From Sulfurimonas sp. GWF2_37_8 (GTDB lineage Bacteria; Campylobacterota; Campylobacteria; Campylobacterales; Sulfurimonadaceae), in assembly GCA_001829625.1 (NCBI GenBank), contig MIBW01000018.1, forward strand, positions 2,058 to 38,395: DNA of 36,338 nt, written 5' to 3'. Every line of letters starts with the position of its first letter. Within the stretch, counting starts at the first letter, position 1. A program made the position numbers and the translations under genes. Shown here piece after piece: positions 10,642 through 35,684 of this stretch. The notes under the pieces are model-generated. The model was not told the DNA's origin, did not search any database, and saw only the letters and a list, made by a program, of their open reading frames with translations.

Positions 10642-10646
10642 ACACA

Positions 10647-11039: not shown

Positions 11040-11050
11040 GTCAAACAAAA

Positions 11051-13096: not shown

Positions 13097-13153
13097 TTAT
13101 TTTGTAATATAACGCATTAATCATAAAAGAGGTATTAATATCACTTTTTAGAG

Positions 13154-13387: not shown

Positions 13388-13434
13388 TGAGAACTCGCTG
13401 TTTTTGATGAATTATAGTAAAAGATACTTATATT

Positions 13435-14004: not shown

Positions 14005-14021
14005 TTTCTTTACTCGGTAGC

Positions 14022-15653
14022 TTACATCATTCCTGGCATGCCTTGCATTGCGTTGTTCATATTGTCATTTGAAGAGCTTGCTTCTGGAAGTTCGAAGATA
14101 GCTGCTTCTGTTGTAAGAAGCAAACTTGCAACAGATGTTGCGTTTGTTAGAGCAACACGGCCTACTTTAAACGGATCGATGATACCTGCTTCAAACATAT
14201 CTACATATTCACCTGTAGCTGCATCAAACCCGATATTTTCATTTGTTGCGTTTACAACGCCGTTTACAACGACACCTGTGTCATAACCTGCGTTTGCTGC
14301 GATTTGTTTCATTGGCGCTTTAACAGCACGAAGGATGATTTCACAACCGATTTTTTGATCACCGCTAAGGTCAAGATTTACTTTTGCAGCAGCACGAACA
14401 AGTGCAGCACCTCCACCGATAACGATACCTTCTTCAACAGCCGCTTTTGTTGCTGAGAGCGCATCATCGACACGGTCTTTTCTCTCTTTCATCTCAGTTT
14501 CAGTGGCAGCACCGACTTTGATAACTGCTACACCGCCGCTGAGTTTGGCTAAACGCTCTTGCAGTTTTTCTTTGTCGTATTCACTTGAAGTCGTATCGAT
14601 TTGGACTTTGATTTCAGCGATTCTTGCTTTTACAGACGCTTCGTCTCCTGCACCGTTTACGATAACCGTGTTGTCTTTGTCTATAACTACGCGTGAAGCC
14701 TGTCCTAACATCTGGATAGTCGCACCCTCAAGTGTGTAGCCTGTTTCATCAGAGATAACAACACCTCTTGTGAGGATAGCGATATCTTGAAGCATCGCTT
14801 TACGACGATCACCAAATCCAGGAGCTTTTACCGCAGAAATATTTAAAACGCCACGAAGTTTATTGACAACCAAAGTTGAAAGTGCTTCACCCTCTACATC
14901 TTCAGCGATGATAAGAAGAGGACGAGAAGTTTTTTGTACTTGCTCCAAAACTGGAAGCATATCTTTGAGTGAAGAGATTTTGTGGTCGCAAAGAAGTATC
15001 CAAGGATTTTCGATTTCAGCTACCATTTTTTCAGTATTTGTGATGAAATACGGACTGAGATATCCACGGTCAAACTGCATACCCTCAACAACAGTAAGCT
15101 CATCGGAGATACCTTTTGCCTCTTCTACGGTGATAACACCGTCTTGCCCGACTCTATCCATAGCTTCAGCGATCATTTCACCGATTTGTGCATCTGAGTT
15201 TGCAGAAATAGTTGCAACTTGTGCGATCTCTTTTTTACCGTTTACAGCTCTTGAAGATGCTTTTAGATGCTCAAGTATTGAAGCACAAGCTTTGTCCATG
15301 CCGCGTTTTACTTCGATAGGATTTGCTCCTGCAGTGATATTTCTAAGACCCTCACTGAGTATCGCGTTTGCCAAAACTGTAGCCGTAGTCGTACCATCAC
15401 CTGCTTCATCAGCAGTTCTTGAAGCGACTTCTTTTACAAGCTGTGCACCCATATCTTCAAGTTTGTCTTTAAGTTCCACTTCACGTGCAACAGATACACC
15501 ATCTTTTGTGATGATAGGATTGCCGTAGCTTTTTTGTATAAGAACATTACGACCGCGTGGCCCCATTGTTACCTTTACAGCATCTGTTAGTTTTGCAACA
15601 CCACGAGCCAATGCATTACGCGCATTGTCTGAAAAAATCATCTCTTTTGCCAT
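14022..15653 (-). CDS. groL: Chaperonin GroEL (Cpn60)
   Basis: A 543-aa 60-kDa chaperonin that folds proteins inside a double ring with GroES. It starts [19 protein letters not shown], has the ATP-site motif [10 protein letters not shown] with the conserved GDGTT, and ends in a Gly/Met-rich tail (MQGMPGMM). Length and motifs are standard; no insertion or missing residue was seen. It lies 104 bp after groES on the minus strand, forming the usual groESL operon. Confidence 0.99.
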
Positions 15654-15757
15654 TGTTTTTTATTCCTTAATTTTATTTCATATTGAAAGCTTTGAATGAC
15701 GATATTTTTGTCATTCTGAACTTGATTCAAAATCTCATAGCTATTAATCTTTGTTAC

Positions 15758-16018
15758 TTAGCCGATGATTCCAAAAACATCATCAATTTCGATTACAACA
15801 AATTTTTCACTGTCCAATGAAACTTCATTGCCTGCATATTTGCCAAAAAGAACTTTATCACCACATGTAAGTTCTGTAACCTCTTTACTCACTGCTACAA
15901 CCTCACCGCGAGAAGGTTTTTCTTTGGCATTATCAGGAATGATAATGCCAGAAGCAGTTGTACTTGCCTCTTCTACGCGTTTGACTAGCACTCTTTTACC
16001 TAATGGTTGAAAATTCAT
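15758..16018 (-). CDS. groS: Co-chaperonin GroES (Cpn10)
   Basis: An 86-aa lid of the GroEL chamber. It shows the mobile loop [20 protein letters not shown] with the conserved GIIIP, and the domain-roof strands [11 protein letters not shown]. The start has an AAAGGAG ribosome site 6 bases upstream. A possible promoter on the minus strand is TTGATA at about 16058-16063 and TAATTT at about 16036-16041. I saw no CIRCE repeat (HrcA operator) in the 180 bases upstream. Confidence 0.98.
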
Positions 16019-16173
16019 AATACTCCTTTTTTTATCGATAAATTATTTAAAAACGCAACTGTATCAAATGTTGGTAAATTAAAATTTAATAATGAAGTCT
16101 ATCATCATAGTGGTTTGTTTGCCCTTAAGTTCTTTTTTATTGTGACAAAAGGAAAACAAAAGCTTTGCATAGA

Positions 16174-16179
16174 TATAAT
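16174..16179 (+). promoter_or_regulatory. -10 box for the tRNA pair
   Basis: TATAAT in the context TAGATATAATTCCGACC lies 20 bases before the tRNA-Met start, a spacing that would put the transcript start a few bases upstream of the mature 5' end. It probably serves both tRNAs. Confidence 0.65.
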
Positions 16180-16198
16180 TCCGACCTACAAAAAAGAT

Positions 16199-16275
16199 GT
16201 CAGGGTAGCTCAGCTGGTTAGAGCACTGGTCTCATAAGCCGGGGGTCGGGGGTTCGAGTCCCCCCTCTGACACCA
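16199..16275 (+). tRNA. tRNA-Met (CAT)
   Basis: A 77-base cloverleaf: acceptor GTCAGGG pairs with CTCTGAC, the T arm is GGGGG-TTCGAGT-CCCCC, the anticodon loop CTCATAA gives CAT at 16233-16235, and CCA is encoded. The first pair G-C rules out the initiator, which has a mismatch there. Elongator Met is most likely; a lysidine-modified Ile2 tRNA also carries CAT and cannot be fully excluded. Confidence 0.93.
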
Positions 16276-16301
16276 TTTTTAAGTAGAATTTTCTTCAACA
16301 T

Positions 16302-16376
16302 TCCGAATTAGCTCAGCGGTAGAGTAGGTGACTGTTAATCACTTGGTCACTGGTTCGAATCCAGTATTCGGAGCCA
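16302..16376 (+). tRNA. tRNA-Asn (GTT), integration target
   Basis: A 75-base cloverleaf: acceptor TCCGAAT pairs with ATTCGGA, the anticodon loop CTGTTAA gives GTT at 16334-16336, the T arm is CTGG-TTCGAAT-CCAG, and the 3' end is GCCA. It lies 26 bases after tRNA-Met on the same strand. Its last 17 bases form part of the 19-bp repeat found again at 35666-35684, so the mobile element entered here and left the tRNA intact. Confidence 0.96.
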
Positions 16377-16378
16377 CA
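16360..16378 (+). repeat. attL direct repeat (tRNA-Asn 3' end)
   Basis: The 19 bases TCCAGTATTCGGAGCCACA are identical to 35666-35684. They cover the T-arm/acceptor end of tRNA-Asn plus two bases downstream of CCA. This is the usual core for tyrosine integrases that target tRNA 3' ends. Confidence 0.95.
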
Positions 16379-16389
16379 ACAACATAGAA

Positions 16390-16404
16390 CCCCACAAACT
16401 GGGG
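16390..16404 (+). terminator. Element-borne terminator-like hairpin after tRNA-Asn
   Basis: CCCCA (16390-16394) and TGGGG (16400-16404) form a 5-bp stem with loop CAAAC, followed by ACTTCTTACC. The same kind of hairpin, with nearly the same loop and tail, stands at 35691-35706 beyond attR. There it would be the chromosomal terminator separated from the tRNA by insertion. Confidence 0.5.
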
Positions 16405-16426
16405 ACTTCTTACCCCTCATAAATCA

Positions 16427-16580
16427 TTCGGTGTCAATCTCGGTGCCATTCGGTGTCAAATAAATCTTTATCCAAATTACAAACCTCATGCAATCTATAA
16501 AACATTTCCATTTTTGGAAAAAAACACCATTTTCAACAACTCAGGCAACAAGTTTTTCACTCGGTGCCAATTCGGTGCCA
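16427..16580 (+). promoter_or_regulatory. Left arm-type integrase sites, five TTCGGTGYCA copies
   Basis: Copies of TTCGGTGYCA lie at 16427-16436, 16439-16448 (CTCGGTGCCA), 16449-16458, 16560-16569 (CTCGGTGCCA) and 16571-16580. They come in closely spaced direct groups about 10-12 bp apart. The last two lie inside the integrase 3' coding end. Matching copies occur at the right end. This arrangement fits arm-type sites bound by the N-terminal domain of the integrase. Confidence 0.65.
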
Positions 16581-17674
16581 AAAGAAGAAAAAGTTCCGTT
16601 TAAAAACTCTTCTCTTTTCTTCTCTTTTCTCTTAATGTAATGAGTGTATTTACTCAGTGTCATAGACGAGTCGGTATGTCCTAACATATTAGATAACCAA
16701 AGAATATCTTCCCCATTTTCCAACATCATAGTCGCAAATGAATGTCTTGTTTGATAAATGGTTCTGTAATCAATCCCACAAACTTTTAATGTCTTCTTCC
16801 ATGAAGTCTCTCTGATTCTTTTGATGTCATAAATAGGTTCATCAAACTTATTTAAAAACACATACGAATCTTTATCGCCAGTGAGTTTGTATTGACTTTT
16901 TAAATATGGCATCAATGAGTCTAAAATATCAATCGTGCGATTGCTCGATTCTGTTTTAGTCTTACCATCAAAACCCATTTTTCTGGTTCTTGTGATTTTG
17001 ATTTCAGATTTGAAAAAATTCACATCACACCACTTCAAACCAACCATCTCTCCGCTTCGCATCCCGCTCATAAAACCAAGAGCGAAAAAGTTTCTGTCTT
17101 GTCCGTCCGACTTTTCTAAAATCAATGAAATCTCATTAAGTGAAAAAGGTGTAATTTCAGTTTTTGAGACTTTTGCCGTTTTAACAAGAGTCAAAGGATT
17201 TTTATCTATCAACTCATCGGCAATTGCATCTTTTATAATGGTGCTTAAAATAGCTCGAATAGTTCTTACTCTTCTTGGACTTACCGCTTTTAGCAATTTG
17301 CTTTGCCATAATTTAATATGAGACGCTTTTATTTCGTCTAGTTTTAAATGTCCCAAATGGGGTGAGATGTGTTTATTATAAGCTATTTTATAATCGTTTT
17401 GGGTGCTGAGGCTTCGTGAGCCTTCATTCATCTCAAATGACTTCTTTTGATAATCATCCAATTTTGGTATCTTTTTTTCAATGAACTTATTATTCTCTAA
17501 CTTATACAACAGCTCAGGAATAATCTTTTTCTTTGCCAATTTCATATTAGCAGGTGTATTCTCTAATTTAAGAGTTTTTCTTTGTCTGATTCCATCGTTA
17601 TCGTTGAAATCTATCCATAACCACTCTTTAACTATACCTTCGGAATTTTTAACTTTTTTAACATAGATTTTCAT
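16541..17674 (-). CDS. int: Tyrosine recombinase / site-specific integrase
   Basis: A 377-aa integrase that joins element and tRNA-Asn att sites. An arm-binding N-terminal part (1-70) is followed by a SAM-like core-binding domain (about 75-165) and a catalytic domain. Catalytic residues seen are R206 (GMRSGEM), R310-H311 in YQTRHSFAT, H333 (MLGHTD) and nucleophile Y343 (SKYTH). The usual His of the HxxR box is Tyr (Y307), a variant seen in many phage-type integrases. The gene reads away from cargo and ends 165 bp from tRNA-Asn. The start follows AAGGAACTGTATATT; the promoter is at 17736-17741. Confidence 0.95.
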   Translation of the reverse strand: MKIYVKKVKNSEGIVKEWLWIDFNDNDGIRQRKTLKLENTPANMKLAKKKIIPELLYKLENNKFIEKKIPKLDDYQKKSFEMNEGSRSLSTQNDYKIAYNKHISPHLGHLKLDEIKASHIKLWQSKLLKAVSPRRVRTIRAILSTIIKDAIADELIDKNPLTLVKTAKVSKTEITPFSLNEISLILEKSDGQDRNFFALGFMSGMRSGEMVGLKWCDVNFFKSEIKITRTRKMGFDGKTKTESSNRTIDILDSLMPYLKSQYKLTGDKDSYVFLNKFDEPIYDIKRIRETSWKKTLKVCGIDYRTIYQTRHSFATMMLENGEDILWLSNMLGHTDSSMTLSKYTHYIKRKEKKREEFLNGTFSSFGTELAPSEKLVA

Positions 17675-17769: not shown

Positions 17770-18111
17770 TTATGAGACTAATGAGGATAAAATCTCATTG
17801 ACGATTGATGCAGTTTGTTCTTTTTCATAGGTTACATTGTTTGCAGATTTGACACCCATTACCCAATTATCAACTTCAACTTTGTCAAATAAAAGTTTCC
17901 CATCTCTTTTGAAGTAGTGGACGCCTTGGATGAAATCATTTTTTTTGATTTTAGATTTGATAGTTTCAAGTTTGTAGCCTGTGTAGTCCGACAACTCTTG
18001 TGTGTTGAACCATCTCTTTTGGATAGTTCCTTTTTCAACTGTATCTTTTACAGATGTTAAAAGAGATACGATGGTAGAAATATGATTTAATGCTTCAAAG
18101 TCAATATTCAT
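17770..18111 (-). CDS. Excisionase/MerR-like helix-turn-helix protein
   Basis: A 113-aa small DNA-binding protein. The region RWFNTQELSDYTGYKLETIK through FKRDGKLLFDKVEVDNWV (about 40-95) is the winged helix-turn-helix of the HTH_17/Xis group. It lies next to the integrase on the same strand, the usual place for a recombination directionality factor, so excision control is the likely role. The ATG at 18111 was chosen because AAGGAC precedes it; the longer frame to 18156 lacks a ribosome site. A regulator-only role is also possible. Confidence 0.72.
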   Translation of the reverse strand: MNIDFEALNHISTIVSLLTSVKDTVEKGTIQKRWFNTQELSDYTGYKLETIKSKIKKNDFIQGVHYFKRDGKLLFDKVEVDNWVMGVKSANNVTYEKEQTASIVNEILSSLVS

Positions 18112-18217
18112 TTTTGCGTCCTTTGTTTTTCTTGTCCGCAGTTTATTTGAATACAAGAAAAGAAGCGAAGGTAAAACGGCAGTGGAAGTGCAACAGATTT
18201 ATTGTATTAAACTGCTT

Positions 18218-18314: not shown

Positions 18315-19422
18315 CACATTTTTCAAGAGATTTTGAATCGAAGATATTGTTTAGAGGTTGTTTGAAGTTATTTTTATATAGTATAAGTTCAACAACATTT
18401 TTAACTTTCGCATTTTTTGCACTTGTGATAAGTTCTTTTCTGTTAAAAGGTTTATACTCTAAATCAAGTTTATTAATGTAATGATAAAGGATTGGACTTA
18501 CATTATTGTTATAGATGAAGTCTATATCGCTTAAACTATCAAGTGTGCCTATATGATTGAAGTTTTTTTGTGAATAATTAACAGTACATTCTTTGATGTC
18601 TGAATTTTGAAGATTCATCATCTCTTCTGCGTTGTATTCGCGGTAATCTTCTTTTAAATAGACTGGGTCAATATTCCATAGAGTATTTTTTCTGTGTTTA
18701 AACTCTTTGTACATCAACAAGTAATCAGAGTTGAAAAACTTCATATCGAATCTGTTATACAGTTTGCTGTAGGTATCTATTCTTTTGATGGTTTTATAAA
18801 AAAAGTCATCTATGTCATCAAATTCATAGATAGGTTTTCCAAAGCTAATGATGCCACCTTTTTTAAAACTCATCATTCCAGAAAAGTTAAAGGCTGATAA
18901 CATAATTAAAAGAGTGCTTGTCTCAATGCCAAACTCTTTTTTCTTTTGAAGTTCATTAAATCTCTGAATCATCTTTTGCTTCACCTTTAAAAAATCCTCT
19001 ATTGGTATATAAAGCTTTTTGTAAGGGATGATAATTTCAGTTCTTACAAACTCTAAAAAATAATCTCTCATTTTTATAGGTGAGTTTCTTATATTTTCAT
19101 GCATTGTAATGATGCAGGTGTTGATTTCATTTACGATTACGGTTTTTACACCATGCTTTTGTAATGAATCGCTCAGAGCTTTAAAAGAACCGCCCATCCC
19201 ATAAAAACCATCTACATAGGTGTCGTAGTGATTATATTTGGTTAAATGGTTGTTAAAGATGTCATTTAAGTCATTTCTCATCTTGTACTTTCCCCCACCA
19301 TAGGCAAGTAGAGCTTTGATGTCGTGTTTATATGAATAAATAAAAGATATATAGTTATCTTTAAAAAGTTTCTTGTCGTGACTTGATTGGTGCAGTTGTG
19401 AATCAATATTAATTGTAGCCAT
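18310..19422 (-). CDS. D12-class DNA adenine methylase-like protein with DPVY motif
   Basis: A 370-aa protein with the layout of Dam/D12 N6-adenine methyltransferases. AYGGGKYKMRNDL (40-52) is the AdoMet-loop start and DGFYGMGGSF (71-80) matches the family FxGGG element. FNFSGMMSF (178-186) lies where the FNGLxR motif is expected. The catalytic DPPY is DPVY at 252-255, so the second proline is replaced, which may alter or abolish activity. Its ATG overlaps the ParB-like gene stop by one base (TAATG), so the two act together. Likely roles are self-marking of the element or evading restriction; both are inference. Confidence 0.8.
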   Translation of the reverse strand: MATINIDSQLHQSSHDKKLFKDNYISFIYSYKHDIKALLAYGGGKYKMRNDLNDIFNNHLTKYNHYDTYVDGFYGMGGSFKALSDSLQKHGVKTVIVNEINTCIITMHENIRNSPIKMRDYFLEFVRTEIIIPYKKLYIPIEDFLKVKQKMIQRFNELQKKKEFGIETSTLLIMLSAFNFSGMMSFKKGGIISFGKPIYEFDDIDDFFYKTIKRIDTYSKLYNRFDMKFFNSDYLLMYKEFKHRKNTLWNIDPVYLKEDYREYNAEEMMNLQNSDIKECTVNYSQKNFNHIGTLDSLSDIDFIYNNNVSPILYHYINKLDLEYKPFNRKELITSAKNAKVKNVVELILYKNNFKQPLNNIFDSKSLEKCA

Positions 19423-20378
19423 TAGTTTGCTCCTTCAAGAAGAGATTTGATAAGTTCAAGCTCTTCTTTGAAGTCGATATGAAGTTTGGATTGTATTTTT
19501 TCTACATCTTCCTCTTCATCGGTTTCAATGGCAACATTAAAATATTTTTTAATCTCATATTTAAAGACTCTCTTCATATCGACAAGAATATTGGGTTCAT
19601 CATCATCTTTGATTTCTGCATCTTCTGACGAATTTAATTCGTTGACAGATATTTCGGAAAGAACAGTCTCTTCTTTGGTTTCTTTTGACTCTTTTGATTT
19701 TTTGGAATCTTCATTAATTGTTTTGTTGCGATTTTGACGAGCTAACATCTCTTCATATTGTTTTGTGATGGAAACAAGGTGTTTGTGTTCAATATTCTCT
19801 GTCTCAATAACTTCTTTTATGAAGTTGGCTAAATCTATCTCTTCAAGTTTAGACATCACAATAAAAGTTGTGAAAGGGATTTTTTTCGCCGAGTCTAACT
19901 TTTGAAAAATAGACTTCACTTCGTCTGAAAGTGTTGAATAAATTTTTCCAGCTTTAAGTTTTAACTGTATCGCTCTTTGAGTGCAATTTTGAATTTTTGA
20001 CATATACTCTGTGTATGGTTCATCGTATTTTTCAAATACAGCATGTTGATAATAGTATATTTGAATGATATCAAGATGCGACATATTTCTGTTAGTCAGT
20101 AAAAACTCAATTCTTAACTTCTCTATTTCAAGAGGGGTTTTATTGGAATCAACCACAAACGCAGGTATCGTCTTAATTTCTAAATTCTTTGATATTAACG
20201 CTCTTCTATTTCCTGAGATAACATTGTTATCATCATCAATATAAATAGGTGTCTGAACACTATAATTTTTAATTGACTCTGTCAAGTTTTCAAAAGAGAT
20301 TAAATCTCCTACGATATCTATAATGTTGTTAAATTTAAGTGCAGATACACTCGCTTGAATAATTTTATTGTTTTTCAT
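19422..20378 (-). CDS. ParB-like nuclease/partition-domain protein
   Basis: A 318-aa protein whose first ~90 residues match the ParB/Srx fold: ASVSALKFNNI, then the motif ISGNRRALISKNL in place of the ParB GxRR box, and IPAFVVD. A helical region follows that could include a helix-turn-helix (about 120-160), then an acidic, Ser/Glu-rich linker and a short C-terminal domain. An in-frame ATG at 20420 has no ribosome site; the ATG at 20378 has AGGAAC at good distance and starts the conserved domain. No ParA partner is present. ParB-like genes next to DNA methylases are common in phages and elements, which favours DNA modification or targeting over segregation. Confidence 0.75.
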   Translation of the reverse strand: MKNNKIIQASVSALKFNNIIDIVGDLISFENLTESIKNYSVQTPIYIDDDNNVISGNRRALISKNLEIKTIPAFVVDSNKTPLEIEKLRIEFLLTNRNMSHLDIIQIYYYQHAVFEKYDEPYTEYMSKIQNCTQRAIQLKLKAGKIYSTLSDEVKSIFQKLDSAKKIPFTTFIVMSKLEEIDLANFIKEVIETENIEHKHLVSITKQYEEMLARQNRNKTINEDSKKSKESKETKEETVLSEISVNELNSSEDAEIKDDDEPNILVDMKRVFKYEIKKYFNVAIETDEEEDVEKIQSKLHIDFKEELELIKSLLEGAN

Positions 20379-20469
20379 TTTTTGTTCCTGTTTAGGTTCT
20401 TCAAAATAAATTTTGAACATGGATATATGTCTATTTAAAGTTTTTACTTAAAAATGACACCCACCGTTT

Positions 20470-20488
20470 AAACGAAAAAAATTCGTTT
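20470..20488. promoter_or_regulatory. Element palindrome copy AAACGAA-N5-TTCGTTT
   Basis: A 7-bp-arm palindrome in the region upstream of the ParB-like gene. It belongs to the family with arms AACGAAT/ATTCGTT found at 19627, 26881, 27388 and 34706. Confidence 0.55.
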
Positions 20489-22719: not shown

Positions 22720-22743
22720 ACCGAAAAACGAATTTATTTCGGT
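22720..22743. terminator. Hairpin at the relaxase stop, diverged palindrome copy
   Basis: ACCGAAA (22720-22726) pairs with TTTCGGT (22737-22743) around a 10-base loop that contains the relaxase stop. The loop and right arm resemble the AACGAATTTA-TTCGTT palindrome with one inserted base. It could attenuate transcription into the 565-aa gene. Confidence 0.4.
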
Positions 22744-24221
22744 TTTAAATCTCTTGATGGACTTCTATAATCTTCTTGAATATAAAGCTTGTTTTGCTCA
22801 GTAAAATGGTTTTTGTGGTGCTTTTGTTGTAAATCTTCTATTAATAGATCAGTTGCCACAAGAGATAGTTCCATCAAATCAGTAAAAAAATCAGTTATTT
22901 TTTTCATATACTTTATAATGAAATATATCTCTGTAAATAAATTCTTTGCGAGCATCTCTAAAAAATCACCTATATCTCCGCCTTTACTGCTGTTGTTTAA
23001 ATTCTTATACATATAGTTTTTTGATTTCTCATCTTTATAAACAACCAACTGTTGAGAACTTGTTTTATTTTCTATAACTGAATAATTAGCGGTGGACTCT
23101 ATCTCTTTATAATTGTAAAGTTTTATGGCGATATGGGCTAAATTCAAAGATTTCAGATATTCGAGTTTTTGGTAATGCAGAGCATTGTTTTTAATGGTAC
23201 TCTCTTTTTTTATTTCATCGCCGTGGAATAATTTATCTTCTAAAATTGGCGGTGTATCCATAGGTTCGATGAAATTATTTGTTTCTTCGTTTAAACGGCT
23301 ACGGGCTTTTACTCTTGAGCCGTCCAATCTGTTATCAACTCTTTTTTTATGTACCTCTTGCATAGCATCCAACCGACTTTTTATATGGTTTAGTGATTGC
23401 TGTTTTATATGCTCTTTTTGCTTTTGCAGAGGGATGTCATTAAAATCATATTCTATATATTTTTTTGTTCCGTTTTCGGTAATATATTTAGATTTGCCGT
23501 CATTGAATAAGGGACTAAAAATCCTCTGAGCTTTTAATCCGATGTCATGTTGCACCGTTAAATAAAAATCATCTTTTTTATAGTCATAGCCTATTTTTTG
23601 AATATCAAGTTTCAGCTCATTTCTCATGTGCTGTATAAGTTCATCGTGAGAACTAAAATTCTCTTTATTTTCAAAAAGGTAATCAAGTAATTTATCCTCA
23701 AAAGCTTTTTTATCAAGTTTATTTTTTATAGAGGATGGGTTATATTTCCAATTCTTCTCGGGGTTTGATTTTGAGATGGGGTTTGGCGGTGTTTCATCAT
23801 ATTTTATATTTAAATAATCTCTTATTGCCTCAAATCTTTTTAAATCACGCTTGTGATAGTATAAATCCAACTTCGTATCGGTTAGCAGGTTCTTTTTTGG
23901 AACTTGTATATGGATGTGGCTGTTGTCTGTGTCTTGATGAAGAACAGCGAATAAATTTACTTCATCTTTTGAATAGGAATGCAATAACTCTTTTTTAAAA
24001 TCTTTATATATGGCAGACATATCTTCATCGCTTCGTTTGCCGTTTGCACTTACTATAAAGTGAAAATGACTGTCTTTATAATTTAATGACTTTGATAATG
24101 AATCCGTCAATTTGGCATTACCGTCCAAAATAGTTATTTTTTCTCTATCTCTACTATTATTGGTGCCGTTGATTAGATAGTTCGTTAAATTCCCGTTTCC
24201 ACTATTTACCGTAATTATCAC
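22734..24221 (-). CDS. Relaxase / mobilization nuclease (MOB_P-like)
   Basis: A 495-aa protein that would nick oriT and lead the transferred strand. A tyrosine near the start (Y15, in GNLTNYLIN) is the candidate nucleophile. The metal-binding triad is in LHQDTDNSHIHIQV (H95, D97, H102, H104), the motif III of the PF03432 relaxase domain. The C-terminal half is hydrophilic and helical with no helicase or primase motifs. It overlaps the MobC-like gene by 20 bp. No coupling protein accompanies it, so transfer needs a co-resident conjugative system. Confidence 0.9.
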   Translation of the reverse strand: MIITVNSGNGNLTNYLINGTNNSRDREKITILDGNAKLTDSLSKSLNYKDSHFHFIVSANGKRSDEDMSAIYKDFKKELLHSYSKDEVNLFAVLHQDTDNSHIHIQVPKKNLLTDTKLDLYYHKRDLKRFEAIRDYLNIKYDETPPNPISKSNPEKNWKYNPSSIKNKLDKKAFEDKLLDYLFENKENFSSHDELIQHMRNELKLDIQKIGYDYKKDDFYLTVQHDIGLKAQRIFSPLFNDGKSKYITENGTKKYIEYDFNDIPLQKQKEHIKQQSLNHIKSRLDAMQEVHKKRVDNRLDGSRVKARSRLNEETNNFIEPMDTPPILEDKLFHGDEIKKESTIKNNALHYQKLEYLKSLNLAHIAIKLYNYKEIESTANYSVIENKTSSQQLVVYKDEKSKNYMYKNLNNSSKGGDIGDFLEMLAKNLFTEIYFIIKYMKKITDFFTDLMELSLVATDLLIEDLQQKHHKNHFTEQNKLYIQEDYRSPSRDLKPK

Positions 24222-24489
24222 TTAGCACCTCCATTAGCAATTTTTCTATCAGGTACAAATAATTAAAAATAGCAATATCAAAACTTCGATAACCACTTCT
24301 GTTGATTTCATTATTTATATTTTCCAATGTACCGTTAATGCTGTTGAGCAAATAAAAGAGATGTGTTTGATTTTTAGTTTTTAGAGCGTTGGATGTGATA
24401 TATTCACGAATGCTCTTATTGGAACTATTTGCTAATATTTGAACTTTGTTATACTCATCCTCATCCAATCTCACTCTTACAAATTTCAT
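24202..24489 (-). CDS. MobC-like relaxosome protein, ribbon-helix-helix type
   Basis: A 95-aa protein. It starts KFVRVRLDEDEYNKVQILA and continues NSSNKSIREYITSNAL, a beta strand and two helices typical of ribbon-helix-helix relaxosome accessory proteins. A helical tail follows (about 40-95). It overlaps the relaxase start by 20 bp and lies one base after the coiled-coil gene. It should bind near oriT and recruit the relaxase. The assignment rests on pattern and position, not on a database match. Confidence 0.75.
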   Translation of the reverse strand: MKFVRVRLDEDEYNKVQILANSSNKSIREYITSNALKTKNQTHLFYLLNSINGTLENINNEINRSGYRSFDIAIFNYLYLIEKLLMEVLSDNYGK

Positions 24490-25120: not shown

Positions 25121-26095
25121 TTATAAACTTTTGGATAATAAGTTCTCAATATAGTATTGAATTTGGTATTGGTGCTTTTTCATAATGTCCTCGTAGCCTC
25201 TTGCTTCAAATATCTTTTTAATGATGATTTCATCATCTGTGATTTGTTTCGAGGTGCGAAGCCATCTTGCATAGGCTAAGTCGGCTGTGGATTTGTCTTG
25301 ATTGTATTTATTTAGTAGCTCTATGTATTTACGATTTACGATTTTTTTAATACCCTTGTATTCTTCAAATTCAGCTCTGCTCGAGTCAATGTCCGTATTT
25401 TTGTTTATCATCGCTTTTGGACGGGTTTCTGCCGTTTTTTGGCAAGGTTTTTTCGCCTCTGCCTCTGCTAATAAATAGTTTTTCGCGACATTTTCAAAAT
25501 CTGTAAAATTGTAATAATTTGGAAATTTTTCGACTGTGACTATAAAATTATTATTCTGAGTTTTTTTATTCATATAGCCCGCTAATCTAAAAATGCGAGC
25601 GGTGTCAAAAGTTTTATCAACATCGAAGTGGTAGATTAAACCCTTGAGCAGTTTTTTAAAATAATCCCGCTCCTCTTTGTTTTTTACAATATGGGCTTCT
25701 TTAAATTTATAGATAAATTGGAACTTCCTTAATGAGGATTCTGTTTTATAAGTTGGTTCTCCAAACAGTTCTATTATTTTTCTTTTTTTCTCTTCTATAT
25801 CGCCCTTGTCTATATCGAAGTAAAAGCTTTTTATTGAATTCACAAATTCCTCTTTACGGCTTGGATGGAAGGTGTTTTGCGGTTTATAGGTGTTTAATGA
25901 AAAATATATATCAACACCATCATTTTTGTTTAGGTAGTAAAATCTCCCTAACTGTTTTTTAAAATTAGTATCTTTTATATTGAGCATGGTATGGTAATTT
26001 TTTACTTTACCATCAGCACCGATTGGATGTTTTTGGGCGATTATGAAATGCTCGTCTTCATTGAAGTAATCTTCTAAAAATTCAATAGAGTTCAT
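25121..26095 (-). CDS. RepB-type DNA primase
   Basis: A 324-aa protein resembling the RepB_primase family (PF16793) of mobilizable plasmids such as RSF1010, which primes single-stranded initiation sites. Supporting stretches are SFYFDIDKGD (the acidic metal-binding strand) and DKTFDTARIFRLAGYMNKK, equivalent to the family RLPGFxNxK motif. A helical C-terminal part follows (about 240-320) with an ARWLRT segment. AAAGGCT lies upstream of the ATG. It follows the winged-helix gene with iteron-like repeats between them, so the element may replicate autonomously after excision. Confidence 0.78.
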   Translation of the reverse strand: MNSIEFLEDYFNEDEHFIIAQKHPIGADGKVKNYHTMLNIKDTNFKKQLGRFYYLNKNDGVDIYFSLNTYKPQNTFHPSRKEEFVNSIKSFYFDIDKGDIEEKKRKIIELFGEPTYKTESSLRKFQFIYKFKEAHIVKNKEERDYFKKLLKGLIYHFDVDKTFDTARIFRLAGYMNKKTQNNNFIVTVEKFPNYYNFTDFENVAKNYLLAEAEAKKPCQKTAETRPKAMINKNTDIDSSRAEFEEYKGIKKIVNRKYIELLNKYNQDKSTADLAYARWLRTSKQITDDEIIIKKIFEARGYEDIMKKHQYQIQYYIENLLSKSL

Positions 26096-26168
26096 TTAAT
26101 AGCCTTTCGCAAAGTTTTTTTTCTATTTTCATTTTTTCATATTCTGAGTATTTATATATTAAGTTCAA

Positions 26169-26267
26169 TGTATATTTTAAATTTAGTGTAAATCTTAAAT
26201 ACGGCATAGTTTTTGAGCCACCACAAAGCATGATTTTTAAGCCACCTAAAAGCATCATATTTGAGCC
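26169..26267. repeat. Iteron-like repeats with AT-rich flank, candidate replication origin
   Basis: Three tandem repeats of exactly 24 bp lie at 26204-26227, 26228-26251 and 26252-26267 (partial). Each starts GCAT and contains TTTRAGCC. Two 14-bp AT-rich direct repeats (TGTATATTTTAAAT at 26169-26182, TGTAAATCTTAAAT at 26187-26200) stand next to them. The third 24-bp repeat overlaps the 3' end of the winged-helix gene. Tandem iterons beside an AT-rich block and rep genes are the classic form of an iteron-type plasmid origin. Confidence 0.6.
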
Positions 26268-26713
26268 TTGATGAATTTTGCGAAAAATGGTGTCATCTCT
26301 ATTATATTTGGTTGGTTACGCATGGGGTTATAGAATAAGGTGTTTTGGGGAAATATAAATTCCCTTATCTCCTTATTTATAACTCTGTTGGTACCTGAAT
26401 GTAATTGGATGAAACCTTTTGAATCCAAATCTTGTAGGGAATTTATTGCGGTGGGTTTTTTAATCCCCGTATGTTTTTCTAATTCCTTATAGGGCAGAAA
26501 AATATAGAGGTGTTCATATGAGAAATGAACACGAGAGAGTAAATACACCAATAATATTTTTGAAGTCGCCGTTAGCTCTGATTTTAGAATCAGTTTGAGG
26601 GCTGGCTCTTCTAAAACAAGATACAGAACCTCTTGCTCTGCCTTATTTTTAGCTTTATAATTTTTTATTCTTTTGCACATCTCTTGGTGCTCTGGGGAAA
26701 GTTTATGAGTCAT
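26255..26713 (-). CDS. Winged-helix replication-initiator-like protein
   Basis: A 152-aa DNA-binding protein. Residues ~48-110 read as a winged helix (LTATSKILLVYLLSRVHF, then YKELEKHTGIKKPTAINSLQDLDSKGFIQL), like the helix-turn-helix of phage and plasmid replication or replisome-organiser proteins. GAAAGGACAAC is a good ribosome site. It precedes the primase gene and borders the 24-bp repeats, so it is the best candidate for the iteron-binding protein (RepC-like function). It could instead be a transcriptional regulator. Confidence 0.65.
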   Translation of the reverse strand: MTHKLSPEHQEMCKRIKNYKAKNKAEQEVLYLVLEEPALKLILKSELTATSKILLVYLLSRVHFSYEHLYIFLPYKELEKHTGIKKPTAINSLQDLDSKGFIQLHSGTNRVINKEIREFIFPQNTLFYNPMRNQPNIIEMTPFFAKFIKAQI

Positions 26714-26880: not shown

Positions 26881-26907
26881 GCCTAAACGAAATAAATTCG
26901 TTTAGGC
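26881..26907. terminator. 11-bp-arm hairpin at the J-domain gene stop
   Basis: GCCTAAACGAA (26881-26891) and TTCGTTTAGGC (26897-26907) form a perfect stem around ATAAA, overlapping the stop codon at 26902-26904. On the minus strand it is followed within ~8 bases by a run of eight T, so it can act as an intrinsic terminator. Its core is also a copy of the element palindrome. Confidence 0.6.
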
Positions 26908-27366
26908 AGTGAGTTTATTTCGTTGTTTGGTTTTTACTTCTTGGCATCCGTATTTTGCTTTTATGTCGTCCATAGATTTTTGCTGTGGGTTTCTGCTTTT
27001 CATCTCTCCGTAATACCACATTTTTTTCTTTGATGCCCATTTGAAATTTAGCTCTTTCAATGTTTCTTTAATACCTTTGGTGTCACCTGATAGCCAAATC
27101 CAACTTCCCACAACTTCAATGATGATATTTTCAAAATGCAGAATTTTAGAGATTACTTTTTCAAGTTCAACATCAAATTCACTATCATTTAAAAAGTTGA
27201 GTCCATGTTCTAAAATATGGTTATATACTTGGTTTAAGAGTTTAAACATTTCATCTGTTCCCCCAACATCAGGGTGTAGTTTTTTTGCTAAATCCTTGTA
27301 TATCTTTTTTGCTTCATTGATTCCCTCTATCCCTTTAAACTGTTCTTCGATTTGTGAATGTGTCAT
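26902..27366 (-). CDS. J-domain (DnaJ-like) protein
   Basis: A 154-aa protein with an N-terminal J domain (about 14-65). The HPD motif is at 31-33 in LAKKLHPDVGG, so it should stimulate a host DnaK ATPase. The rest (about 70-140) is a separate alpha/beta region (IIIEVVGSWIWLSGD, then KWASKKKMWYYG) seen in plasmid and phage J-domain proteins. It is the first gene of the replication module. J proteins can help disassemble or activate replication initiators, which fits the neighbouring winged-helix and primase genes. AAAGGAT precedes the ATG. Confidence 0.85.
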   Translation of the reverse strand: MTHSQIEEQFKGIEGINEAKKIYKDLAKKLHPDVGGTDEMFKLLNQVYNHILEHGLNFLNDSEFDVELEKVISKILHFENIIIEVVGSWIWLSGDTKGIKETLKELNFKWASKKKMWYYGEMKSRNPQQKSMDDIKAKYGCQEVKTKQRNKLTA

Positions 27367-27387: not shown

Positions 27388-27404
27388 AACGAATTTAATT
27401 CGTT
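27388..27404. promoter_or_regulatory. Element palindrome AACGAAT-TTA-ATTCGTT
   Basis: A perfect 7-bp-arm palindrome 22 bases upstream of the J-domain ATG. It is the best-conserved copy of the recurring motif and is placed like an operator for the replication operon. Confidence 0.6.
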
Positions 27405-28750: not shown

Positions 28751-29785
28751 ATGAAATTAGAGAATCACTTAATATATTTTGATATAACACAAATTTGTGG
28801 AGTTGGTTGTGAGTTTTGCATGTACTCAGATAAACATACAATAAAAGACCACTTGGTTTTGACAAAAAAAGCAAAAGTAAACATATCTAAACTTATAAAT
28901 CACGAAGAAATAAAAAGAGTTTCTATTAGTGGAGAGGGTGAACCACTCAATAATATTAAAGCTTTTAAAGAAATTTTATTGTTATCTAATGGAGGAATTG
29001 CATTTGAATTTATCACAAGTGGATATATTTCTCATGATAAATTAATTAATTTATATGATGAAATAAATGAAATCATTATAAAAAATGGAGATACTTGCAA
29101 TATTAGACTAAGTACAGATTCATATCATATCGCTAAAATTAATCATAAGCCTCATGCAATAAGTGTTAAATATTTTTTAGATAATAATTTAACAAATATG
29201 ACATTTTCTTTTAGGTCAATTGATATTGATAAAGAATTTACAAGAAATTATTTACAAGAAGAATTAAAACTATTAGGTATAAAATCAAAAATTTTAATAA
29301 ATGATGAACTTGAAGATAGTGTTATTATCGATAATAAAAAACTTCAAATTGATTATAAAAATTTAGTTAAGCCTACATTTTTAAAAGATATGAAATATAT
29401 GACTTTATCTGAATATATTGAAGCTAAAGAAAAAAAATTAAATAAAGTTTTTACATTGGGAAATGTAAATCCAAAAGCATTATTGAATGGTATGGGAATC
29501 ACGATTAAGCCAAATGGTGATATTTATTTTTATGGTATTGATTGTAATTTATTAGCTAATATTAACTCTGATACTGTAGATATTGATTTTTTTAAAAATA
29601 TTGTTCTAAGAGATAAATTAATCAATACTTTATATACAATACCATTTATGCAATTAATGGATAAAATTTCTATAAATGAGGATGTTAAAAAACTAATTAA
29701 GGATGTTAATAATCCATACTGGATTATAAAAGAAATTATGTTTTATGAGAAATCCTTACTGAATAAAATGATTGAAAATGATTGA
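28751..29785 (+). CDS. Radical SAM enzyme
   Basis: A 344-aa enzyme that would use a 4Fe-4S cluster to cleave AdoMet into a 5'-deoxyadenosyl radical. The cluster motif is canonical CX3CX2C (C16, C20, C23 in ICGVGCEFCMY). SISGEGEPLNN is the GGE-type AdoMet motif at the end of strand 2. The C-terminal part has IKPNGDIYFYGIDCN, a segment like those in which radical SAM proteins read out a final strand, but no full SPASM cysteine set. TAGGACAAT precedes the ATG. It heads a run of seven coupled genes. Substrate unknown. Confidence 0.85.
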   Translation: MKLENHLIYFDITQICGVGCEFCMYSDKHTIKDHLVLTKKAKVNISKLINHEEIKRVSISGEGEPLNNIKAFKEILLLSNGGIAFEFITSGYISHDKLINLYDEINEIIIKNGDTCNIRLSTDSYHIAKINHKPHAISVKYFLDNNLTNMTFSFRSIDIDKEFTRNYLQEELKLLGIKSKILINDELEDSVIIDNKKLQIDYKNLVKPTFLKDMKYMTLSEYIEAKEKKLNKVFTLGNVNPKALLNGMGITIKPNGDIYFYGIDCNLLANINSDTVDIDFFKNIVLRDKLINTLYTIPFMQLMDKISINEDVKKLIKDVNNPYWIIKEIMFYEKSLLNKMIEND

Positions 29786-30614
29786 TTCTCATACGCATTC
29801 AAAATATTCTAAACATGCTATAGGAAGCATTGAAAATATTGTAGTATCTGCTATAGAAAATAATATTAAATTTCTTACAATTACGGATCATGCTCCTTTC
29901 CCAATAGATATAAATAATAGATTATTATATGATGAGTTAAAATATTATTTTGACGATATAAATACTGTTCAATCAAAATACTCAAAAGATATAACTATCT
30001 TAAAAGGGTTAGAAGCTGATTTTGTGCCACAACATATAAATTATACAAAAAATTTAATTTCTAACATGGAACTAGATTTTTTAATAGGCTCAATTCATTC
30101 CATGTTCATAGAAAATAAAAGAATAAATATTTGGGATATAGATAATATACATGATGAAAAGCTAATTACACAATATTTTTTATATCTAAAAGAACTTATT
30201 GAATCTAATTTATTTGATAGCATTGGTCACCCTGATGCAATTTTAAGAGGTGGTATAGATGAAAATATATATTGTGATAACTTTTATCCATTAATAAAAT
30301 TAATGCGAAATAATAATATATCGTACGAGTTAAATACATCTGGATTAAGAAAATCAACATATAATATTAAAACAAATAGCAAAACAAAAAAAATGTGGAA
30401 TTTTCCATCAAAATCATTGATATCAATTTTAAATGATTTTGATATTTTTTTTACTATTGGTTCTGATGCACATGCACCAAATGAAATAAGTATGGGCATT
30501 CAAACTATATTAAATACAGCTAAAGATATTGGTGTTAAAAAAATAAGTTATTATCAAAATAGAAATGTTATACATGTAGATATTGATAAGTGTATTGCAA
30601 AGGGAGATAGATAA
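29778..30614 (+). CDS. PHP-domain phosphoesterase (histidinol-phosphatase-like)
   Basis: A 278-aa metal-dependent phosphoesterase. The PHP motifs are in order: DSHTHSKYS (H5, H7), ITDHAPFP, the metal-binding GSIHSM, SIGHPDAI and the closing GSDAHAP. This is the HisK-type histidinol-phosphatase layout, but there is no histidine pathway nearby, so a different phosphate ester is likely. The ATG at 29778 overlaps the radical SAM stop by 8 bp; a TTG two codons earlier is possible. It would dephosphorylate an intermediate of the same pathway as its neighbours, by inference. Confidence 0.85.
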   Translation: MIDSHTHSKYSKHAIGSIENIVVSAIENNIKFLTITDHAPFPIDINNRLLYDELKYYFDDINTVQSKYSKDITILKGLEADFVPQHINYTKNLISNMELDFLIGSIHSMFIENKRINIWDIDNIHDEKLITQYFLYLKELIESNLFDSIGHPDAILRGGIDENIYCDNFYPLIKLMRNNNISYELNTSGLRKSTYNIKTNSKTKKMWNFPSKSLISILNDFDIFFTIGSDAHAPNEISMGIQTILNTAKDIGVKKISYYQNRNVIHVDIDKCIAKGDR

Positions 30615-31564
30615 TGCAAATTTCAAATTGTTATCTTACTATAAATAGTGAGAATAATTTTATCAATATGAAAAATTATGATGACATGAGTTTATTAACC
30701 GAACAATATAGTTTAGCTAAATATGGAAGTATAAAAGATATAAATATATTTGCCTATATGATTATAAAGAATATGTTTCAAGAGATTGATAATTCTCAAA
30801 GTGGATTTAGAAAAATACTTGAAATAGCAAAACAAAATAATGATTATATTGTTCTTATGACACCAGGATATAGAAATGTTAAATCATCTGCAAATATTAT
30901 GTTTGACATTGCTCTTCCACATATAAATACAAAACTAGCAATTATGAACTTTCCAATAATATCAAAATTAAAACTTCCTAGATTAGCAAGTCCTTGTGAA
31001 AACTATGCATCACTTACAACAAAAGAAAGAAAAATTATTGGACTAACAACTGACCATATTTTACCTGATTATGATTTTTATAAAAATAATAATATTCATG
31101 TAGTATATGGTGATGATATACTTATAACAGGTTCATCATCCAATAAAGCAAAGCTTGATGCTTTGTCAAAAGGTGCAAAATCATTTACATCTATTTATTC
31201 AGTTATAATTGACAAAAAAGTAGCATTAAATAACCCATCTATAGAAGAACAGTTAAACAAATCTAAAGTTACAGAAAAACTTGATAATACTGCAAAAGAG
31301 ATATTTATACAAGATGATTTTATGCCAGTTTTAAGGTCATTAAGATTAATTCTAAATGAAAGCAATTTACCCGATTTAAAACAATTTTTAGATGAAATCC
31401 CAAATCATAATCTTTTGAAAATTTATATTTCATATATGACAAATGAATCCTTAGAAAATGAGAAATATATAAAATCATTAGAATTTATTAAGAAATATTT
31501 AATATTAAATAATGAAATTAAACCTTGTGGTAATTTAAAAATAGGAGCAATATATGAGTTATAA
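30614..31564 (+). CDS. Phosphoribosyltransferase-like protein
   Basis: A 316-aa protein with a PRPP-binding signature, VVYGDDILITGSS (163-175), matching the type I phosphoribosyltransferase pattern of hydrophobic residues, DD and TGS. It continues with ALSKGAKSFTSIYSVIID as in that fold. The N-terminal ~150 residues (VLMTPGYRNVKSSA, LASPCENYASLT) and the helical C-terminal ~100 residues are not typical of salvage or ComF enzymes. They recall phosphoribosyltransferases linked to ter stress operons. Stop and start overlap in TAATG with the PHP gene. It may attach or release a ribose phosphate on a nucleoside-like product. Confidence 0.65.
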   Translation: MQISNCYLTINSENNFINMKNYDDMSLLTEQYSLAKYGSIKDINIFAYMIIKNMFQEIDNSQSGFRKILEIAKQNNDYIVLMTPGYRNVKSSANIMFDIALPHINTKLAIMNFPIISKLKLPRLASPCENYASLTTKERKIIGLTTDHILPDYDFYKNNNIHVVYGDDILITGSSSNKAKLDALSKGAKSFTSIYSVIIDKKVALNNPSIEEQLNKSKVTEKLDNTAKEIFIQDDFMPVLRSLRLILNESNLPDLKQFLDEIPNHNLLKIYISYMTNESLENEKYIKSLEFIKKYLILNNEIKPCGNLKIGAIYEL

Positions 31565-31961
31565 ACAAGTTATTGAAAAAACAAAAAGAATTGAGACAAT
31601 TTTAGTTAAGATGGGTGCAGACGGTAGAGGTCTTCATGAAAAAATTTCCAGCATAGAACATCTAATTGATGAAAAAATAGTAAAATCAATCCGATTTATA
31701 GCATCGATAAGAAATAAGTTGCTTCATGAAGATAATTTTGAAATGACATCAGAATTATTATCAGATTTTGAAAATGCATGTGAAAATATTATAAATAGTT
31801 TGGAAAATAATTCAACTTATGCCAAAGAACAAAATGATAATTCAAGTTATAGTTCATCATCTTCATCATCATCTTCAAGTTCAGATGAATTATCAGGCTG
31901 GGCATTACTAGGAGTAGGTATTGCTGGAGCTTTTGCAGTTTATAATTGGTTTAATTCATAA
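31554..31961 (+). CDS. HEPN-domain protein with Ser linker and C-terminal membrane anchor
   Basis: A 135-aa protein in three parts. Residues 1-88 are helical and contain SIRNKLLHED, an R53-x4-H58 motif, the catalytic signature of HEPN ribonucleases (DUF4145-like). Residues 97-110 are almost pure serine, encoded by a TCA/TCT triplet run. Residues 114-132 (WALLGVGIAGAFAVYNWF) form one transmembrane helix. This is the shape of a membrane-tethered RNase or a structural HEPN scaffold. AGGAG precedes the ATG, which overlaps the previous gene by 11 bp. It may be the effector of the operon, as an inference. Confidence 0.65.
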   Translation: MSYKQVIEKTKRIETILVKMGADGRGLHEKISSIEHLIDEKIVKSIRFIASIRNKLLHEDNFEMTSELLSDFENACENIINSLENNSTYAKEQNDNSSYSSSSSSSSSSSDELSGWALLGVGIAGAFAVYNWFNS

Positions 31962-31964
31962 TCA

Positions 31965-32405
31965 ATGATATGTTTAATAGGAATTATTGAAAGAGGAGAA
32001 TCATCAGCATCGGGTCAAAAAATGAATTGGAATGGATATGGTTCAATATATCATCAAGTAAATTTTTTCAAAGAACATTATCCATCTTTTTTTAAAAAAA
32101 TCATTGATTGTCAAATGGCTACAATAAATATTAAATTAAAAAATAAATTTATTTTAAATCATTGGGAATATACATTTGATAAAGTATATTGGCTACCAAA
32201 TTCAAATACATGGTATGAAAAATTATCATTTACTCCCATTACATTTTCATATAAAAATAATCAAGTTCAAGCATGGCTATATAAAGCTTATAAATCACCA
32301 CATAAAAATAATGATTTTCTTATCGAAGTTGTAGCCCCATATATAAAGAATCTAAAAATTAATGATATTTGTGAAATTAAAATTAATGAAAAATATATTA
32401 AATAG
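31965..32405 (+). CDS. Small protein resembling CTP-dependent riboflavin kinase (DUF120)
   Basis: A 146-aa protein. It begins with a glycine-rich strand (GIIERGESSASGQKM), has TINIKLKNKF in the middle and ends FLIEVVAPYIKNLKINDICEIKI. Together these resemble the archaeal RibK pattern G-x-V-x-S-G, GTLNIxL and EIIAPxxLRExLxLxDGD. In RibK this cradle-loop barrel uses CTP to phosphorylate riboflavin. Several RibK residues are not conserved here and the match is by eye only, so treat it as a fold hint. It starts 3 bp after the HEPN gene without a ribosome site, so translation depends on coupling. Confidence 0.4.
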   Translation: MICLIGIIERGESSASGQKMNWNGYGSIYHQVNFFKEHYPSFFKKIIDCQMATINIKLKNKFILNHWEYTFDKVYWLPNSNTWYEKLSFTPITFSYKNNQVQAWLYKAYKSPHKNNDFLIEVVAPYIKNLKINDICEIKINEKYIK

Positions 32406-33441
32406 ATTTTTTTATAAATTATGTAGAAAAATTGGAATTTTATTATTTGATAAAGAATTAAGTAGTTCGTTACACAATATAAATCATATTTTACTTATAA
32501 ATTGGCATGGTAAAATTGGTGATGCAATAATTTCATCATTTATTTTTAGAGAAATTAAAGAAAAGACAAATATTAAGATTTCTATTATTACTACTAAAGA
32601 GTTAAAATCAATATATAAATATTATAATTCTGATAGTATCCATATTATCGATAGTAACCATAGTTTAATTGATATAAATAATATTGCTAATAAAATTAAA
32701 AAAGTTGATATTATAATTCCACTAATTGGAACATTAGGATTTAATGATTTATTTTTCATTAATAAACTTACCCCCTTGTATGTCTTTTCAACGGATGAAA
32801 CTTTAAAGTTATCAAATAAAAATTTTTTAAAAGAAGTCAATGAAAAACTTGTTAATGAAATATATTATAAAATTTTAGAGTATATGAATATTGATAATAT
32901 TAATGATAATTATATTATTCCTCATACTAAAAAGGAAATAAATATCATTCAATATGATATTTTATTCAATCCATTTGGGAGTAGAAATGATAAGTCATTA
33001 TCCATTAATAAATCAGTTTCTATCTTACAAAAAATTAATAAAGTTTATCCAAATCTAAAAATTATTATTTTGTTTTCTCCAAATACAAAACATACTGCCT
33101 ATAAAATAATTAAAAAAACAAATTGTAAAAATATTATTTTAGCTAAAAATATTTTCACTATAAAAGATAGTATTGATTTAATAAATAAATCTGATATTGT
33201 AATATCTGTTGATACTTCAATTGTCCATATTTCTATTGGAATGAATAAAAAACTTATATCTATTTATTATAAAGCAGGTAATAGTTTTAATGCTTGGTTA
33301 CCAAAAAAATCATTAAAAACTAAAATTATTTTTAGCTTAGGTAAAGATGATTATATGACAAAAGATATGAATAAGTTTAATGATGATGAAATTATACAAA
33401 AAATAAATTTTTTTAAGGATTTAAATAGTGATAAAAAGTAA
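32386..33441 (+). CDS. GT9-family glycosyltransferase (heptosyltransferase-like)
   Basis: A 351-aa GT-B enzyme. The N-terminal domain begins with ILLINWHGKIGDAIISSF, the heptosyltransferase G-D-x-hydrophobic motif. The C-terminal domain has FNPFGSRNDKSLS and ISVDTSIVHISIGMNKKLISIYY, the nucleotide-sugar binding signature of GT9. Such enzymes add heptose or related sugars to LPS core or other acceptors. The ATG at 32386 overlaps the preceding gene by 20 bp; an in-frame ATG 8 codons earlier is possible. Codon use is extremely AT-biased. The acceptor is unknown. Confidence 0.82.
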   Translation: MKNILNRFFYKLCRKIGILLFDKELSSSLHNINHILLINWHGKIGDAIISSFIFREIKEKTNIKISIITTKELKSIYKYYNSDSIHIIDSNHSLIDINNIANKIKKVDIIIPLIGTLGFNDLFFINKLTPLYVFSTDETLKLSNKNFLKEVNEKLVNEIYYKILEYMNIDNINDNYIIPHTKKEINIIQYDILFNPFGSRNDKSLSINKSVSILQKINKVYPNLKIIILFSPNTKHTAYKIIKKTNCKNIILAKNIFTIKDSIDLINKSDIVISVDTSIVHISIGMNKKLISIYYKAGNSFNAWLPKKSLKTKIIFSLGKDDYMTKDMNKFNDDEIIQKINFFKDLNSDKK

Positions 33442-34429
33442 TAAAAATGTATTTTTATATTGGGATAAAAGTGAAGATAGAATACCCATTATTCACAAGA
33501 TGAATATCGGTAATATAAGAAAACGCTTAGAAAATACAGATTGGAATGTCGTAGTTGTTTCACTTGACAAAACATCTAAATATTATGTGGAAAATTTAAT
33601 AAATTTGCCAGATTATTTTTTTGACATGAAAAACAGAATAAATGATTTAAGTACTATTGGTGGAAATCAAAGTGATATTATTAGATTAAGATTGCTTGAA
33701 AAATATGGTGGGGTGTACTTTGATACAAGTACAATACTGTTAAAAAACAGCATCGAAGATATAGAACTTTATAAAAATTTTAGTGAATCTGATAATTATA
33801 AACTAGCTGGATATACAAATGTAACATTTACAAGAAAAAATGATGATGGTACAAATTATTTTAAAAATGCAAAAGATGGTATAGAATTAGGGGTACTATT
33901 TGCTAAGAAAGATTCCAAAATAATTAAAATTTTAAATCAAGAAATAGATGAATATTGGCATTGGAAAACGAAAGATAATACTTATATAGATTATCCATTG
34001 TTTAAAAAGCATAAGTTATCAAAAGTAAGTTTTTTAAATGAATACCATGTGCATTATACAATTTTTCACATGATTATCACTAAAGATGCATCATTACTAA
34101 ATGAACTTTTAACACAAAGTATCCATATGAAAGGAAAAGAAAATTCTATAAAAGATGGTGCATACGCAATTACAGATAGGTTTTGTAGGGGTAATAATGG
34201 ATATGATAAAGCAAATCCAAAATATTTATTAAAAGCTTTTATAAAAGGTGATAGGAATATGTTTAATGGTAAAACAACGACTTTAGAAGATAGAATTAAA
34301 CTGATATCAAAAATGGATTTAATAGTGATACCTGGATATTTAAGAGTTGAAGTAGAGGAATATTTTAAAAGTATAGATGATTATAAAAATATTGAATCTG
34401 TATATCAATTTGTATATAAGGAAATTTAA
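33428..34429 (+). CDS. Capsule-type glycosyltransferase (Caps_synth/GT32-like)
   Basis: A 333-aa GT-A-type sugar transferase. It starts with VFLYWDKSEDRIP, continues with IGGNQSDIIRLRLLEKYGGVYFDTST (S82 onward), and has DTS (99-101) where GT32 enzymes have DxD. That variant is usual in the capsular polysaccharide synthesis family (PF05704). A later segment FLNEYHVHYTIFHMI also fits. The GTG start with AAGGAT overlaps the GT9 gene by 14 bp. It is the last gene of the coupled operon and, with GT9, suggests glycosylation of a surface polymer or of the operon's product. Confidence 0.82.
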   Translation: MIKSNKNVFLYWDKSEDRIPIIHKMNIGNIRKRLENTDWNVVVVSLDKTSKYYVENLINLPDYFFDMKNRINDLSTIGGNQSDIIRLRLLEKYGGVYFDTSTILLKNSIEDIELYKNFSESDNYKLAGYTNVTFTRKNDDGTNYFKNAKDGIELGVLFAKKDSKIIKILNQEIDEYWHWKTKDNTYIDYPLFKKHKLSKVSFLNEYHVHYTIFHMIITKDASLLNELLTQSIHMKGKENSIKDGAYAITDRFCRGNNGYDKANPKYLLKAFIKGDRNMFNGKTTTLEDRIKLISKMDLIVIPGYLRVEVEEYFKSIDDYKNIESVYQFVYKEI

Positions 34430-34705: not shown

Positions 34706-34783
34706 AACGAATTTTATTCGTTGTCTTTATGACAACTATTTTGGAATAATGAACTTAGTTCGTTTTATAAAATATGCTATAAT
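34706..34783 (+). promoter_or_regulatory. Promoter with palindromic operators for the GNAT pair
   Basis: AACGAAT-TTT-ATTCGTT (34706-34722) is a near-exact copy of the element palindrome. A TTGTC/GACAA stem follows (34721-34735). A half-site TTAGTTCGTT (34755-34764) covers the -35 position, and TATAAT is the -10 box (34778-34783). The arrangement suggests repression by an element-encoded or TA-encoded regulator. Confidence 0.6.
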
Positions 34784-35665: not shown

Positions 35666-35684
35666 TCCAGTATTCGGAGCCACA
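35666..35684 (+). repeat. attR direct repeat
   Basis: The sequence is identical over 19 bases to 16360-16378. It marks the right end of the element; the chromosome resumes beyond it. Confidence 0.95.

Follow-up and report, generated by a model that had tools for sequence, protein, structure and literature searches.

The tandem 24-bp repeats at the end of a winged-helix gene in Sulfurimonas sp. GWF2_37_8 are likely the iteron-type replication origin (oriV) of a small initiator-plus-primase replicon, which would belong to an integrative mobilizable element (IME). After excision, the element would probably be able to replicate as a circle. The window, i.e., the whole stretch of 36,338 nucleotides that was analyzed, contains an element of 19.3 kb inserted at tRNA-Asn and flanked by 19-bp att repeats (TCCAGTATTCGGAGCCACA), with copies at the tRNA-Asn 3' end and at 35666 (Table 1). 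An iteron origin inside an integrative element had been suggested in the initial annotation, and it is the reading that best fits the att repeats, the integrase, the relaxase, the RepB'-like primase, the initiator-like winged helix, and the repeat triples in four relatives. Autonomous replication has been documented for few IMEs, mainly Salmonella genomic island 1 (SGI1), and a Sulfurimonas module would extend it to the Campylobacterota.

Table 1. Features of the candidate replicon and of the element that carries it (window coordinates)
Feature	Position	Strand	Basis
attL, 19-bp repeat in the 3' end of tRNA-Asn (16302-16376)	16360..16378	+	Direct repeat match
Tyrosine integrase	16541..17674	-	Family matches
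Possible excisionase	17770..18156	-	HTH_17/DUF1233, weak match
ParB-like protein	19422..20420	-	Homologues in relative elements L016 and L020
MobA/VirD2-type relaxase	22734..24221	-	PF03432 above cut-off
NikA/MbpA-like mobilization accessory protein	24202..24489	-	Weak match
AEP-type primase, 324 aa, RSF1010 RepB'-like	25121..26095	-	Pfam, motifs, structure model
AT-rich array, about three 18-bp units, candidate DNA-unwinding element	26151..26204		Tandem Repeats Finder, triple scan
Candidate iterons, three tandem 24-bp units	26204..26275	-	Tandem Repeats Finder, shuffle tests, genome scan
Single winged-helix protein, 152 aa, candidate replication initiator	26255..26713	-	HTH_36, PHROG 270, structure model
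J-domain protein adjoining the replication genes	26902..27366	-	72% identical copy in L024
attR, identical 19-bp repeat, far element end	35666..35684	+	Direct repeat match

Tandem Repeats Finder reported a repeat of period 24 with 2.7 copies at 26204-26267, and its score of 79 is the highest in the window. If mismatches are allowed, the array extends to three full units at 26204-26275 with a mean pairwise identity of 69%. No other three-unit tandem of period 18-27 in the window is as good, and none of 200 dinucleotide shuffles equalled it. The three tandem units described before are thus well supported. The iteron core on the minus strand is GGTGGCTyAAAAA; the core GGTGGCTYAAAAA has two occurrences in the 1.9-Mb host assembly, both within the 24-bp repeat array. 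The third unit overlaps the final codons and the stop of the winged-helix gene, and the order in the coding direction is winged-helix gene, 24-bp repeats, and primase gene, with the primase start just over 100 bp downstream of the repeats. The neighboring winged-helix and primase genes are also as had been described. Iteron-type replicons are recognized by direct tandem repeats of about 17-24 bp adjoining an initiator gene and by an adjoining AT-rich stretch. The first is seen in the 24-bp array, and the second in a GC content of 20% in 26096-26204 (vs. 28% for the whole element) and in an AT-rich array of 18-bp units.

This AT-rich array was reported by Tandem Repeats Finder at 26153-26200 (period 18, 2.7 copies, score 54); among triples it ranks second in the window, and it directly adjoins the 24-bp repeats. 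The AT-rich repeats had initially been noted as a pair of 14-mers. That pair alone (12 of 14 matches) is weak, since 21 of 300 local shuffles are as good, whereas the 18-bp array is convincing. The S. denitrificans-type DnaA box is HHATTCACA (PMC5043019). No such box was found between the iterons and the primase in the window, and loci L018-L020 of other genomes have one DnaA box with an 8/9 match. A DnaA box in the origin is not a requirement of every replicon.

The 152-aa protein matches PHROG 270, a replication initiation protein (E = 9.8e-07), and its HTH_36 match is just under the cut-off. Its structure model is of modest confidence (pLDDT 70.9) and resembles DnaD-N (Z 8.5), RepA NTD (Z 7.4-7.8), and pPS10 RepA WH1 (Z 6.7). 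Many winged-helix folds match the model, with replication proteins in the top group and others at similar Z, and Z 7-8.5 is a common level for winged helices. Because other winged helices score similarly, the fold supports an initiator role and falls short of proving it. Likewise, the resemblance to the N-terminal domain of the staphylococcal RepA_N initiators (4pql, 4pt7, 5kbj) is limited by the lack of a C-terminal partner domain in the window protein and by a Pfam RepA_N (PF06970) score far below the cut-off (12.5 bits vs. 30, E = 0.14). None of the six winged-helix homologues has a listed match to Rep_3 (PF01051). A PDB sequence search with alignments of both the winged-helix protein and the primase gave nothing useful.

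MarR-like and CodY-like regulators are also among the fold matches, and the repeats lie just upstream of the primase start, as would be expected if they were an operator only, the winged-helix protein being a transcription regulator of the primase operon in an element without replication of its own. We consider this unlikely. Direct repeats of 22-24 bp beside AT-rich repeats typify plasmid origins, whereas the operators of winged-helix proteins are usually palindromes. Furthermore, the PHROG matches are replication initiation proteins, and another Sulfurimonas genome (L023, below) pairs a primase of this family with a Rep_3 initiator. These observations favor an origin over an operator.

By its structure model, the 324-aa protein is a primase of the archaeo-eukaryotic type, with priming activity predicted. 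It carries the primase motifs FDID at residue 93 and YHFD at 155. The Pfam RepB_primase match of the window protein (20.1 bits) is below the cut-off of 24.3, and a RepB_primase match was found in all nine members of the primase family. The model is confident (pLDDT 84.8) and matches S-2L PrimPol (Z 18.8) and RSF1010 RepB' (3h20, Z 15.8, aligned ends 1-324; 3h25, Z 15.6). The module therefore resembles the IncQ replicon (RSF1010: RepA, RepB', RepC) in its RepB'-fold primase, an initiator-like gene, iterons beside an AT-rich stretch, and a mobilizable element. It differs from IncQ in having neither a recognized RepA helicase gene nor a RepC match, and in its integrated state and its tyrosine integrase. 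Neither a RepA hexameric helicase nor any other helicase family was recognized in the element proteins that were scanned.

In RSF1010, RepB' is linked to mobilization. Alternatively, the primase and the winged-helix protein might act in conjugation: like RepB' and MobA-RepB of IncQ plasmids, they would start complementary-strand synthesis once the element has been mobilized, and the repeats would serve for priming or loading instead of as oriV. The relaxase gene, which lies downstream of the winged-helix and primase genes on the same strand, would suit such a role, as would the resemblance of the winged-helix fold to DnaD, a helicase-loading protein. Against it, tandem repeats arrayed regularly behind an initiator-like gene are a feature of origins, and the genomes G489 and G016 have related relaxases and no primase match. 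Thus, a role in conjugation is very unlikely, and the repeats are better read as an origin.

The element is an IME by gene content, with excision and mobilization predicted, because the element proteins that were scanned include no T4SS or conjugation apparatus family; it combines a site-specific recombinase and flanking att repeats with a relaxase that lacks a complete conjugation apparatus. The Rfam scan of the window returned two tRNAs and nothing else. The opposite strand carries a series of cargo genes at 28751-34429 (radical SAM, PHP-domain, glycosyltransferase-like, and capsule-synthesis-like). A 17-bp palindrome, AACGAAnnnnATTCGTT, has four copies (20471-20487, 26886-26902, 27388-27404, and 34706-34722); copies precede the ParB-like and J-domain genes and also lie close to the winged-helix gene. 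The palindrome is confined to the element, with no further copy in the 1.9-Mb genome, and a search of the loci from other genomes did not find it. This palindrome may be a ParB-type or operator site.

The pair of winged-helix and primase genes is also present in the Sulfurimonas loci L017, L018, L019, and L020 and, more distantly, in L024; for other families, the winged-helix matches were too weak (E about 1e-3 to 1e-5) and were left out of the relatives. Three tandem 22-bp units are found in L017-L020 at the site equivalent to the window repeats. Individually these triples are modest (0-5 of 200 shuffles as good), and in a joint test on the four loci, which are close to one another, only 2 of 1000 alignment-column shuffles were as good. 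The initiator of the window is about 45% identical to those of this group, and the putative recognition helix differs. A shared iteron sequence was rejected because a weight matrix of the window units scores the relatives no better than shuffles. Repeats and their binding protein diverging together would give such a pattern, and ancestry and drift could do so too. In L024 (initiator 36% identical), no significant triple was found, with 141 of 200 shuffles as good. Therefore, conservation of the repeats in related elements, on which the earlier reading had been made to depend, extends in L017-L020 to position, number, and approximate period, but not to the unit sequence, and it fails altogether in L024. 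The J-domain protein of the window is 72% identical to one at 8784-9245 of L024 (G309, another family), far above the identity of neighboring genes.

In the single-contig Sulfurimonas genome G230 (L023), a Rep_3 initiator (PF01051, passing cut-offs) is followed by the same primase family, and 4.5 copies of a 21-bp repeat are found upstream of the Rep_3 gene. L023 resembles the window in its primase family, in an initiator gene just upstream, and in tandem repeats, but its initiator is of the Rep_3 type and its repeats precede the initiator gene, whereas those of the window follow the winged-helix gene. Because the primase family pairs elsewhere with a recognized iteron initiator, the same role is supported for the winged-helix gene. 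A homologue of the L023 Rep_3 protein, with 30% identity, is found in L022. The ends of the small contigs L017 and L022 do not overlap, and neither was therefore classed as a circular plasmid. The plasmid collection gave no tblastn match with either the winged-helix protein or the primase, and viral contigs searched with single proteins or alignments gave no relatives. L016 of G476, a genome of the same genus, has relaxase, NikA-like, ParB-like, and primase genes in common with the window, and its contig ends inside the primase gene. A frame change interrupts a further gene common to both, a methylase-like one, in L016 (12837-13896); this would be a pseudogene or an assembly error.

Across the 135 genomes of the genus, the relaxase family occurs in 12, the primase in 8, and the winged helix in 6, one of which is a weak match with internal stops. 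The replication module is judged to be an optional part of these elements because the relaxase family occurs in genomes without a primase match. A scarcity of carriers would also be expected if the replicon were a decayed remnant of an integrated plasmid that no longer works, as would the partial winged-helix gene without a primase in L052 (G424). Such decay is highly improbable for the window, where the initiator, primase, relaxase, and integrase genes are all open frames and the two att copies agree across 19 bp.

Replicating IMEs are known, and SGI1 is the closest model: its rep gene (S004-rep) is followed immediately downstream by iterons and AT-rich DNA, and it replicates the excised island (PMC7433901, PMC7826253). 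The arrangement in the window is similar to the SGI1 oriV in that a candidate initiator gene of an IME is followed by tandem candidate iterons and AT-rich DNA. The two differ in the initiator (an IncN2/N3-type RepA in SGI1, a 152-aa single winged helix here), in the repeats (four GC-rich ones of 16-17 bp vs. three AT-richer ones of 24 bp), in DnaA boxes (present in SGI1, none found in the iteron-primase gap of the window), and in the primase gene that adjoins the origin in the window element.

We propose that the integrase would excise the element as a circle, as its presence together with the att repeats suggests. The winged-helix protein would bind the three iterons where its own gene ends, and this binding would help open the adjoining AT-rich 18-bp repeats. 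The host DnaB helicase would enter there, as we infer from the lack of a recognized helicase gene in the element, and the RepB'-like primase, encoded just downstream and assigned by its modeled fold, would prime synthesis. Initiator binding may also regulate primase transcription, given the short distance from the repeats to the primase start.

Iteron origins in IMEs are of a known kind, and a replicon that pairs a single winged-helix initiator with a RepB'-type primase and has no recognized helicase gene is a variant. It is filed as such, and not as a separate category, because the kind is known and the combination had no match to described replicons among the searches made. Tentatively, and with somewhat less confidence than an even chance, Campylobacterota elements might have a separate class of minimal replicon, defined by a single-domain winged-helix initiator and a RepB'-type primase, with iterons located between their genes and no helicase gene, in which a change of initiator goes along with a change of iteron sequence at constant position and copy number. 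The compact initiator-iteron-primase module would offer diverging initiators and iterons as a testable pair, and it could be used as a replicon in genetic tools for Sulfurimonas and the Campylobacterota.

A tRNA cluster (Gly-Leu-Cys-Ser) adjoins different elements in L020, L023, and L063, which belong to different genomes, and is by this distribution a shared integration hot spot. L063 (G489) encodes an integrase, a relaxase, and a set of large proteins; four genes at 9746-17353 presumably resemble a JetABCD (Wadjet-type) defense operon, as judged by length and order.
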